Shown here: positions 56,575 through 58,853 of the stretch, in pieces
Numbering within the stretch: position 1 is the first letter of the stretch
Layout: every line of letters begins with the position of its first letter
Origin: Martinezella rhizogenes
GTDB taxonomy: Bacteria > Pseudomonadota > Alphaproteobacteria > Rhizobiales > Rhizobiaceae
Length of the DNA stretch: 64,000 bases
Assembly: GCF_000799715.1 (NCBI RefSeq)
Contig: NZ_JUHG01000016.1
Coordinates: forward strand, 186,001 to 250,000
Reading direction: 5' to 3'
Made by a program: the position numbers and the translations under genes
Notes under the pieces: model-generated
Databases searched by the model: none
Seen by the model: the letters and a program-made list of their open reading frames with translations, nothing else
What the model was told of the DNA's origin: nothing

Positions 56575-57819
56575 TCAGGCAACCGCCGACAGCTTGGCCT
56601 GATCGCCCTGTAGCCGGTTGATCATGAAATTCGCGTACCATTCGACGAACTGCATCACGCCGCCTTCATCTTCCTGCGAATAGGGGCCGGGCTCGTAGGC
56701 GGGCGAGCGGATGCCGAAGGCATTTTCCTCGACAATCCGGCGGTCCTGGTCGTTGGTCTCGGTCCAGACGTGGGTCAGCTCCTTGAGATCGTAGTCGACG
56801 CCTTCGACCGCGTCCTTGTTGACGAGCCACTTGGTCGTGACCTGCGTTTGCTCGGGACCGAGCGGCAGCACGCGGAAGGTGATCGCATGGTCGGCGAGCA
56901 CATGATTCCATGTCGTCGGATAGTGGAAAAGCAGCAAGGTGCCGATATGGCTTTCCAGCACGTCTTTGGAGAGCGGCCGCTGCACGGCGCGCGCGCCCGA
57001 CATGGTGTAGCTCTCGGCATCCTGGATGAGCGGCATGCGTGCGGCGCGGAACTGGCCCGTCGGCGTCATGCGGAATTCGCTTGGAAGACCCGCCGCCTCG
57101 CACTTTGCCCAGTGTTCCGAAATCACCGGATCGTCCTTGGCGCCCTGTACGCCGGTCGCGCTCGGTGCTTCCGGATAGGTGCGGCAGAGTTCGGGATGGT
57201 TGGCCGCGCAATGATAGCATTCGCGATTGTTTTCCCACACGAGCTTCCAGTTGCCCTTCTCGATGATCGTGCTTTCGAAGGCGACCTTGGTCTCACCGAG
57301 GTGGTGACGGGCGAGATAAGGCTCGACCATAGCGCGGAACGGCGCGAAGTCCGGCGCCTGATCTGCAAGGCAGATGAAGATATAGCCGCCAACGCTTTCG
57401 CAATGGACCGGCTTCAGCGAGAACTGGCTCTTGTCGAAATCCTCCGGCATATGCCGGGCAAAGAGCAGGCTCCCGTTCAGTTCGTAGGTCCACTGATGAT
57501 AGGGGCAAACCAGCTTTGCCGAGGAACCGCGCTCGGAAGAACAGACGCGCGAGCCGCGATGGCGACAGCTATTGTGGAAGGCGCGGATCACCTGATCGCG
57601 GCCGCGAACGATGACGACGGGATAATCGCCGATCTGGACGGTGAAATAGTTGCCGGCGCGCGGCACCTCGCAATCATGGCCGATGAACAGCCAGTCGCGA
57701 TAATAGATCATCTCCATATCGAGCTTGAAATAATCCTGATCGGTATAGAAGGGCTGCTCCAGGCTGAAGCCCTCGCGGCGGTTCTTCAGTTGCCGCAAAA
57801 CATTGCTGCTGATGTCCAT
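56575..57819 (-). CDS. gbcA: glycine betaine demethylase oxygenase subunit GbcA (Rieske)
   Basis: A 414-residue Rieske non-heme iron oxygenase. The 2Fe-2S ligands are C85-x-H87 (SCRHRGS) and C105-x2-H108 (VCPYHQW); the mononuclear iron His pair lies in RECYHCAANHPELC. The sequence fits the GbcA branch, which demethylates glycine betaine to dimethylglycine and formaldehyde. AAGGATAGG precedes the ATG at 57819. The only upstream regulatory structure is a cobalamin riboswitch, on the same strand, about 105 bases from the start. Stachydrine or carnitine oxygenases are related alternatives. Confidence 0.88.
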   Translation of the reverse strand: MDISSNVLRQLKNRREGFSLEQPFYTDQDYFKLDMEMIYYRDWLFIGHDCEVPRAGNYFTVQIGDYPVVIVRGRDQVIRAFHNSCRHRGSRVCSSERGSSAKLVCPYHQWTYELNGSLLFARHMPEDFDKSQFSLKPVHCESVGGYIFICLADQAPDFAPFRAMVEPYLARHHLGETKVAFESTIIEKGNWKLVWENNRECYHCAANHPELCRTYPEAPSATGVQGAKDDPVISEHWAKCEAAGLPSEFRMTPTGQFRAARMPLIQDAESYTMSGARAVQRPLSKDVLESHIGTLLLFHYPTTWNHVLADHAITFRVLPLGPEQTQVTTKWLVNKDAVEGVDYDLKELTHVWTETNDQDRRIVEENAFGIRSPAYEPGPYSQEDEGGVMQFVEWYANFMINRLQGDQAKLSAVA

Positions 57820-57925
57820 TTGCCTATCCTTGCGCAGTAGCGGTCAGCAGGCAGAGGACACGCATGATCGGCCGCGAACGACCGCAACGCAATGTCCCGA
57901 CCGCCCGCCGCGGTCAGTAAATCAT

Positions 57926-58114
57926 ATCTCCCCAAGGCTGGTTTCCGGGCTCTGGAGCGGTCCCCTAGGGGACCCCATGGCACCTTCCCAGGCTGTCTCA
58001 GCCCAGTGGCTTTATCCGCCATGCCTTACTCCACCACCGTTGCGGGGGCAGCGCCGGATTTCGACCGGCTTCCCAATTCTCCGCCTCCCTAGCAGGCGGC
58101 ACCTTGAGATTGAT
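57926..58114 (-). promoter_or_regulatory. cobalamin (adenosylcobalamin) riboswitch controlling gbcAB
   Basis: On the minus strand the aptamer runs from GGTGCCGCC (58113) through GGGAAGCCGGTCGAAATCCG, CGCTGCCCCCGCAACGGTG, GCCACTGGGCTGAGACAGCC and GGGAAGGTGCC, to the 3' B12 box AGAGCCCGGAAACCAGCC at about 57936-57953. These are the classic conserved cobalamin-riboswitch blocks. The 105-base linker to gbcA has alternating GACCGC and GCGGTC segments (57840-57845, 57880-57885, 57899-57904, 57910-57915) that can pair in exclusive ways, a plausible expression platform. No other gene lies between it and gbcA. Confidence 0.93.
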
Positions 58115-58335
58115 ATCATCATAATCCCCGCCCCTCCCGCTGCTCTGCTGCAATGCGACATCGGCTTCGAAATTGACGACAGACGAAAGAAGATTTTCGG
58201 AGACGTGGCGCGGCCAAAATATCCGAAGACAATTCAAACCGTTATGCTCCCGCGAAGAGTATTGGTTCCCACCCCGGCCACGCATTGTCCACGGCGCTTT
58301 GTCTTGATTGCGACAGGCCCGTCGGCAAGCGGGCT

Positions 58336-58749
58336 TTAGAGAGGATATTGCCCCGCCGAGAGTGCCTGCAGCGCGGCCATCGCGCGCCCGGCATCGACCG
58401 CCGGCACGAAGATATGATCATGGTAATAGCCGGCGACGACATTGGCACTGATCCCTTCCTGCCCCAGCGCCGTCGCAAAGGCAGCCGTGAGACCCACGGC
58501 TTCCAGTGAGGAGTGAATCTCAAGAGTGATCATCCGCATTGCCGGCGCAACCGGAAGTCCTGCCTGCCGGGCTGTCTCGACCGGCAGGATCAGCGTCACA
58601 CCTTCTCTTTCCTGAAACAGTCCGATCGGTTTGAGATCGATATGATCCATCAGCGACGAAGCCGGCATGCTGCAATAGACGAACTCGCCCTCGACGAGAT
58701 CAGGTTTCATGCCGGCAAGCAGCTGCTTGAGGTCGGTAATGCCAGGCAT
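58336..58749 (-). CDS. ACT domain-containing protein
   Basis: A 137-residue protein with two ACT-like segments: LVEGEFVYCSMPASSLMDHI, GLFQEREGVTLILPVETAR, and MRMITLEIHSSLEAVGLTAA ... ISANVVAGYYHDHIFVPAVD. It belongs to the small COG3602-type ACT family, probably an amino-acid-binding regulator of unknown target. The start MPGITDLKQLL at 58749 has GAGGGTGAG upstream. It is upstream of the riboswitch on the same strand, but separated by about 220 bases. Confidence 0.88.
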   Translation of the reverse strand: MPGITDLKQLLAGMKPDLVEGEFVYCSMPASSLMDHIDLKPIGLFQEREGVTLILPVETARQAGLPVAPAMRMITLEIHSSLEAVGLTAAFATALGQEGISANVVAGYYHDHIFVPAVDAGRAMAALQALSAGQYPL

Positions 58750-58853
58750 GGTTCTCACCCTCTTCAACAATCCGCCGACAAAGGCACAGGCTTCAGCCCG
58801 GCTCAAGCTAGGTGATCTATCATGCGGTATTCAGACCTCCATGGCGAGCCGGC

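Follow-up and report, generated by a model that had tools for sequence, protein, structure and literature searches.

What could a cobalamin riboswitch be for when it stands in front of an enzyme that is expected to need no cobalamin? The question is raised by a locus of Martinezella rhizogenes where such an RNA precedes a pair of gbcAB-like genes, the biochemistry of the Rieske demethylase GbcAB being B12-independent. A first-pass annotation of the 64,000-nucleotide stretch of DNA analysed here (the window) had placed a complete cobalamin riboswitch directly 5' of these genes and on their strand, and cmscan bears this out, RF00174 being the sole Rfam match at the gathering threshold in the whole window. 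The aptamer is full-length relative to the model, scores 107 bits against a gathering cut-off of 31.5 bits and includes the 3' B12 box (Table 1), whose GAGCCCGGAAACCAGCC block is mostly invariant in an alignment of 38 riboswitches. The boundaries initially drawn, 57820-58114, turn out to enclose the linker and all but 7 bases of the aptamer. With the start of the gbcA-like ORF at 57819, on the strand of the aptamer, this linker is 99 nt long. The CTGCCCCCGCAAC block is presumably the loop called L5 in the literature on this riboswitch class, and the RNA as a whole is expected to bind cobalamin. A scan of positions 57700-58400 returned no sigma-70-type promoter match. A gene for an ACT-domain protein lies at 58336-58806 on the same (minus) strand, ~215 nt upstream of the aptamer.

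Table 1. Positions of the features discussed, in window coordinates except for mtgB, which is given by contig of the same genome.
Feature	Position	Strand	Basis or remark
Cobalamin riboswitch aptamer, complete	57919-58121	minus	cmscan RF00174, 107 bits, E 8.2e-26, model 1-189
CTGCCCCCGCAAC block	58051-58039	minus	string located; likely loop L5 of kissing interaction
GCCACTG	58010-58004	minus	string located
3' B12-box block GAGCCCGGAAACCAGCC	57952-57936	minus	exact string located
P13-like hairpin CTGACC-GCGGCGGGC-GGTCGG	57917-57897	minus	string located; directly 3' of aptamer
GACCGC copies	57962-57957, 57915-57910, 57845-57840	minus	strings located
GCGGTC copies	57904-57899, 57885-57880	minus	strings located
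5' helix arms GTGTCC and TGCCT	57861-57856 and 57853-57849	minus	free fold of linker; imperfect helix drawing in start region
Shine-Dalgarno-like AAGGAT	57831-57826	minus	6 nt 5' of ATG
3' helix arms AGGCA and GGACAT	57825-57821 and 57817-57812	minus	free fold; flank and overlap ATG
gbcA-like Rieske oxygenase, 414 aa	56575-57819	minus	Pfam Rieske and Ring_hydroxyl_A; NCBIfam GbcA; PDB 3n0q, 3vca, 4qup
gbcB-like FAD/NAD/2Fe-2S reductase, 362 aa	55483-56571	minus	NCBIfam GbcB; Pfam FAD_binding_6, NAD_binding_1, Fer2
mtgB, MttB-family methyltransferase	C1:615868-617364		own genome

The two genes, adjacent on one strand and separated by 3 nt, encode an oxygenase and ferredoxin-reductase pair in a putative operon, with no B12-binding domain among the Pfam matches of either protein. 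GbcA (NF058607) and GbcB (NF058606) are their best NCBIfam models, at 523.9 and 374.7 bits, under the respective curated cut-offs of 670 and 500; likewise, the window oxygenase is the top GbcA match of its own genome (525.6 bits) and still falls under the cut-off. The name gbcAB given by the first-pass annotation is a family-level call, sound as to the betaine-demethylase family and short of what the curated models demand. In gene order and in the pairing of homologous oxygenase and reductase the window agrees with the GbcAB monooxygenase of Pseudomonas and Chromohalobacter, but its oxygenase is only 45-49% identical to 20 above-cut-off GbcA proteins from other classes of the phylum. Identities are higher to a Ruegeria sp. 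TM1040 gene product (58%; PDB 3n0q) and to the Stc2-type product encoded beside stc4 in S. meliloti (57%), the latter being nearly identical to PDB 3vca, an entry that, together with 4qup, we take to represent Stc2. An orthologue from Paracoccus versutus, 69% identical, has as neighbours genes for a GlxA-type regulator, ETF, FolD, formaldehyde dehydrogenase and a BCCT transporter. On these comparisons it is fairly safe to regard the window enzyme as a betaine-type N-demethylase, and glycine betaine is its likely substrate; nonetheless, the sub-cut-off scores together with the 57% identity to Stc2 mean that the substrate may be another one.

The genome to which the window belongs (6.54 Mb in 20 contigs) also carries what is probably a B12-dependent counterpart of GbcAB, namely mtgB accompanied by mtgC, mtgD, mtgE and ramA homologues, and here MtgBCD and GbcAB probably share a substrate. 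The first-pass annotation named B12-independent isozymes among the usual targets of these RNAs but could not recognise gbcAB as a possible case, because mtgB sits on a different contig (G000:C1) that the window does not include. Besides mtgB, the cluster comprises genes for a corrinoid protein, a DUF1638 protein, an MTHFR, a pterin-binding protein, a RACo/RamA activator and a homocysteine methyltransferase. MtgBCDE was described from Ruegeria pomeroyi mutants and proteomics as a B12-dependent betaine demethylase and split methionine synthase, with the mtg set of S. meliloti lying beside a cobalamin operon (Mausz et al., PMC12478193). The cluster found here resembles its S. meliloti and Ruegeria counterparts and is likewise near cob genes, the cob riboswitch of C1 being ~8-24 kb away; in contrast, the available text of that paper separates bacteria with GbcAB from those with MtgBCD, and the present genome carries both. 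Three RF00174 matches exceed the cut-off in this genome, at a BtuF/BtuC-like transporter (C2), at cobU-cobW-cobN (C1) and at gbcAB (C5). A fourth, weak match (25.5 bits, under the cut-off) lies at G000:C3:16200-16320, 5' of a gene for a CbtA cobalt transporter.

We consider it probable that the riboswitch acts as a B12-repressed isozyme switch for betaine demethylation, choosing between GbcAB and MtgBCD. One genome would thereby hold two routes for removal of the first methyl group from betaine: MtgBCD, a corrinoid (B12)-dependent methyltransferase, would pass the methyl group to tetrahydrofolate, and GbcAB, an oxygen- and NADH-dependent Rieske enzyme, would release it as formaldehyde. With B12 at hand, GbcAB would not be made and betaine would be demethylated by MtgBCD. 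A precedent exists in the metE/metH pair with its cobalamin riboswitch, for which metE was tested (PMC9600662).

The same isozyme logic could also serve another quaternary amine, the Rieske enzyme and the MttB-family protein both acting on stachydrine (proline betaine) or a compound like it. We hold this to be unlikely, though worth keeping in mind: the window oxygenase is closer to the Stc2-type product than to GbcA of other classes, its scores are under the GbcA cut-off, riboswitches are also found on the 3n0q-like clade next to Stc2, and MttB family members with different substrates are described in PMC12478193, yet the stachydrine demethylase Stc2 (S. meliloti; PDB 3vca, 4qup), for all its membership in the same enzyme family, is the product of a separate S. 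meliloti gene. That gene, beside stc4 on pSymA of strain ml45, is distinct from the orthologue of the window gene (75% identical, pSymB of strain Ak57) and bears no riboswitch, and the Paracoccus orthologue is placed within a betaine-catabolism-like cluster.

Conservation of the arrangement was evaluated in 199 sampled genomes of the family (Rhizobiaceae, as its named close relatives indicate), 72 of which contain a close gbcA orthologue, defined by at least 65% identity. cmscan at the gathering threshold places a riboswitch directly upstream of gbcA in 49 of these 72, distributed over 32 genus codes and including one genome (G061) detected at 68.8 bits though it has no core-motif match; three more distant loci (L157, L158 and L159, 55-58% identity) were excluded from this table. 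For named relatives and distant loci, a covariance model of our own was built from 38 of these RNAs, and with it a riboswitch was recognised upstream in 42 of 80 named relatives, a set that overlaps the 199-genome sample and in which one locus (L043) offers just 41 nt of upstream sequence. The orthologue of S. meliloti Ak57 (L205) is preceded by one as well. Two further relatives, R. freirei PRF 81 (L054:5810-5909) and R. lusitanum SEMIA 4060 (L057:5808-5907), which we assign to the R. tropici group, keep 100-nt remnants at the expected place, which have lost the central part of the aptamer and retain both of its ends, including the B12 box. Scans with filters off gave no convincing riboswitch at L071, L072, L102, L143 and L145. 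In two genomes (G104 and G176), a second strong cobalamin riboswitch occurs on the same strand ~1.5 kb beyond the end of gbcA (L122:1249-1456 and L125:4769-4975).

The survey of gbcA homologues that the first-pass annotation had proposed also bears on its own caveat, namely that the riboswitch might be orphaned, and on the wider reading of an accidental or left-over RNA without regulatory function after loss of another gene. Such an origin would fit a downstream gene that is not a textbook target and the fact that some relatives have lost the RNA. It is nevertheless very improbable in view of the riboswitch standing just upstream of 49 of 72 orthologues in 32 genus codes, of pairing arms around the Shine-Dalgarno (SD) sequence that covary between clades, of the RNA being missing or deleted where mtgB is gone, and of related enzymes that bear riboswitches at several places of the enzyme tree.

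The distribution of mtgB, the one gene of the mtg module that was scored across genomes, supports an isozyme switch. Among the 72 genomes, 47 have both riboswitch and mtgB, 21 have neither, 2 have the riboswitch alone and 2 mtgB alone (Fisher p 7.7e-14, a value that ignores relatedness); in the 49 mtgB-positive genomes the best match is at least 76% identical. Adding L157, L158 and L159 changes the counts to 47 with both, 2 with the riboswitch only, 4 with mtgB only and 22 with neither. On the gbcA gene tree, which stands in for the species tree, absence of the riboswitch marks 9 clades and absence of mtgB likewise 9, of which 8 are shared. A model of correlated evolution of the two traits is favoured with a likelihood ratio of 34.9 (p 4.8e-7) for 75 tips and of 35.7 (p 3.4e-7) for 72 tips, the riboswitch being lost at a rate of 32-33 without mtgB and of 0.04-0.13 with it, about 250-850-fold. 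A conservative pair test restricted to well-supported branches was suggestive but not significant, with 4.5 of 6 pairs changing the same way and 0 the other way (median p 0.06; 0.125 when reversed).

In the window's own genus, the three other genomes sampled (G029, G128 and G194) lack both riboswitch and mtgB. The exceptions fall within one genus each, the riboswitch occurring without mtgB in G094 and G169, with weak aptamers of 56-61 bits, and mtgB without the riboswitch in G102 and G174. In the named relatives mtgB was tested in 50 of the 80, hand-picked for presence or absence of the riboswitch, so that the margins are not random: all 30 with a riboswitch have an mtgB orthologue at least 87% identical, and 16 of the 20 without a riboswitch have no such orthologue, R. 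freirei PRF 81 (L054) being scored among the latter with an MttB protein only 35% identical. The four that do have it are L071, L072, L092 and L102, and L092 shows a 13-bit riboswitch remnant at the expected place despite the presence of mtgB. Neither of the two genomes with 100-nt remnants, R. freirei PRF 81 and R. lusitanum SEMIA 4060, has an mtgB orthologue.

General decay of B12 riboswitches was also considered as a cause of these losses and is ruled out, as all 23 gbcA genomes without a gbc riboswitch carry at least one other RF00174 match. Recognisable targets accompany 5 of 11 other riboswitch sites fetched from mtgB-lacking genomes, either B12-uptake-type genes (L276, L278 and L279) or ribonucleotide reductase genes (L272 and L275); the remaining 6 have none. 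In the two last-mentioned loci, from G190 and G189, the cobalamin riboswitch is situated ~0.8-1.1 kb 5' of the ribonucleotide reductase genes, another isozyme-type target.

The reason originally offered for the riboswitch was a different one: B12 would repress betaine demethylation since betaine feeds 5-aminolevulinate, corrin and cobalamin synthesis, closing a feedback loop on the supply of glycine and methyl groups. Repression by B12 of genes of the betaine-demethylase family remains the most likely behaviour, but the feedback reason appears quite improbable. Betaine feeding does raise B12 yield in industrial strains (PMC8123684), and at gbcA itself the action of the riboswitch would look identical. 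Nonetheless, such feedback should couple the riboswitch to B12 synthesis, whereas across genomes its observed correlate is mtgB, the gene scored; the riboswitch is absent in nearly exactly the clades that lack mtgB, and other cobalamin riboswitches persist in 23/23 of the genomes that lack the gbc one. Moreover, MtgBCD would feed the same pathways and should be repressed as well, and in the window's own genome riboswitches were found at btuFC, cobUWN and gbcAB, and weakly at cbtA.

A further alternative, improbable in our estimation, is one of methyl economy, by which low B12 would block MetH/MtgE and GbcAB would be turned on, regardless of MtgB, to burn betaine or to supply glycine and formaldehyde-derived C1 units. 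Because mtg is also a split methionine synthase (PMC12478193), and mtgB alone was scored, loss of mtgB may accompany loss of the whole module. Yet the joint loss of riboswitch and mtgB would be left unexplained unless MtgCDE is always lost too, and the genomes concerned retain other B12 riboswitches. For the isozyme switch, the exceptions within and outside the family indicate that mtgB is close to necessary for the riboswitch and not sufficient.

How B12 might turn off gbcA is suggested by the linker. It opens with a hairpin, presumably P13, whose loop could, judged by eye, pair with most of CCCCCGC in the L5 block, with one mismatch, and a GCGG[TC]GGG loop is found within the first 45 nt in 47 of 49 riboswitch linkers. 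In the cobalamin riboswitch class, a hairpin loop docks onto the aptamer in a kissing-loop interaction. Folded alone, the window linker reaches -50.2 kcal/mol and holds SD and ATG in an imperfect helix, in which 3 of the 6 SD bases are paired; the mean pairing probability is 0.47 for the SD and 0.42 for the ATG. The mutually exclusive GACCGC/GCGGTC pairings of the first-pass annotation do exist: the copies at 57915 and 57904 form the stem of the P13-like hairpin, which is lost in a constrained fold when GACCGC 57845-57840 pairs with GCGGTC 57904-57899, while pairing of the same GACCGC copy with GCGGTC 57885-57880 keeps the hairpin and dissolves the helix of the start region. As stable alternatives they fare worse, at -41.7 and -38.5 kcal/mol when forced, 8-12 kcal/mol weaker than the free fold; in the -38.5 kcal/mol structure the ATG and most of the SD are unpaired.

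Across the group, helices that take up the SD are enriched. When the SD was placed first, 48 riboswitch linkers compared with shuffles gave a combined p of 3.3e-6, against 0.96 for 23 orthologues without a riboswitch (group difference p 5.6e-5), values that are optimistic because the sequences are related; individually, p<=0.05 was reached in 7/48 with and 1/23 without the riboswitch. This version of the test was devised after viewing the sequences and the result of a first version, which cut the linker elsewhere and gave no signal (3/49 at p<=0.05, combined p 0.58). For the window alone, the simple SD helix does not exceed shuffles (p 0.34), and its platform is, as modelled, a weaker case than the riboswitch-bearing group. 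In that group, clades differ in the sequence of the SD arms and maintain their complementarity (GUCCUUG/CGAGGAC, GCCGCUUCC/GGAAGCGGC, UAUCCUCAUC/GAUGAGGAUA and UCCUGUCCU/AGGACAGGA). The platform is strongly conserved in 15 sequences chosen from one part of the tree, and in these a CCACC...UCAGUC strand is complementary to the hairpin's GACUGA...GGUGG, which on complementarity is a natural anti-sequester. A simple scan of 57700-58400 found no terminator-like site. From the enrichment in the group, the folds of the window and the lack of a terminator-like site in that scan, we infer that gbcA is controlled at translation and off with B12. Plentiful cobalamin would bind the aptamer, onto which the loop of the downstream hairpin would dock, and the rest of the linker would then fold so as to render the SD and start codon of gbcA less accessible; when cobalamin is short, MtgBCD would be inactive, the linker may adopt the alternative pairing and GbcAB would be translated.

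Outside Rhizobiaceae the pattern was followed with the 38-RNA model. In a family (f17) that we interpret as Rhodobacteraceae because its genes cluster with the Ruegeria gene, 38 genomes have a homologue and 30 loci were examined, with a riboswitch at 14; mtgB-like genes are present in 14/14 with it (~60% identical) and in 14/16 without it, a comparison of little power because 186 of 198 genomes there have mtgB-like genes. Of 29 homologues from other families of the class, 7 carry the riboswitch; each of these 7 genomes encodes an MttB protein with 66-71% identity to mtgB, and 12 of the 22 without it have an MttB match at E <=1e-80. That the riboswitch occurs only where the partner is kept holds widely; that it occurs wherever the partner is kept fails outside the family. 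None of the 20 above-cut-off GbcA loci from other classes carries a riboswitch, and 19 of those genomes are without mtgB; these reference genomes, one of which (L186) contains the Pseudomonas sRNA CrcZ, are probably gammaproteobacterial. Riboswitches are also lacking at the Paracoccus gene and at an Agrobacterium plasmid homologue, as they are at the S. meliloti Stc2-type gene.

On the Ruegeria sp. TM1040 megaplasmid (L207:5667-5869), a cobalamin riboswitch recognised by Rfam lies 5' of the gene for PDB 3n0q, an entry annotated as 'putative aromatic-ring hydroxylating dioxygenase'. Because a riboswitch precedes its gene, 3n0q may rather be a quaternary-amine demethylase, as this position suggests. 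In a wider enzyme tree, obtained by a quick method with SH-aLRT support only and some long branches, genes with riboswitches belong to the clade of the window gene, to the 3n0q-like clade close to Stc2 or to a third one (L219-L221) that, while from the same class as the window, adjoins GbcA of other classes. This suggests that the riboswitch may have been attached repeatedly, or else is of very old origin with later losses. Separately, at least 4 genomes, those of L282 (G104:C1:2249000-2257000), G080, G108 and G176, have a more distant Rieske homologue (~32% identity) in divergent orientation to a cobalamin riboswitch. We lean, with some reserve, towards a generalisation to Alphaproteobacteria as a whole, in which cobalamin, by way of a riboswitch, would set whether methyl groups of a major osmolyte go to tetrahydrofolate and methionine (B12-dependent MtgBCDE) or to formaldehyde (oxygen-dependent Rieske enzymes), the switch having been attached to more than one Rieske branch and erased when the B12 route was lost.

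Control of B12-independent isozymes by cobalamin riboswitches is well established. With metE/metH, the gbcAB locus has in common the RNA family and the logic of turning off a B12-independent isozyme with B12 (PMC9600662); it differs in that the pair is catabolic, serving betaine demethylation, and in that the target is an oxygen-dependent Rieske enzyme and not a methionine synthase. gbcAB would belong in the regulon category 'isozymes of B12-dependent enzymes' of Sun et al. 2013 (PMC3766115), the main text of which contains neither 'betaine' nor 'Rieske', and whose supplementary gene lists may name such a gene. In the available text of PMC12478193 the word 'riboswitch' occurs once, in a reference title. 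Searches of the main text of open-licence papers turned up no earlier description of gbcAB under a cobalamin riboswitch. As the isozyme kind is known and the betaine pair was not found in print, the locus would represent a known kind of control with a new target, catabolic rather than biosynthetic.

For the biology of these bacteria, an odd regulatory placement becomes a testable rule. It would join two betaine routes that the available text of PMC12478193 sets apart in different bacteria, and offer rhizobia a second, B12-independent one. The availability of B12 is predicted to set the fate of betaine carbon, including the amount of formaldehyde formed. Beyond betaine, the co-presence and co-loss of a riboswitch can point to the B12-dependent partner of an enzyme.
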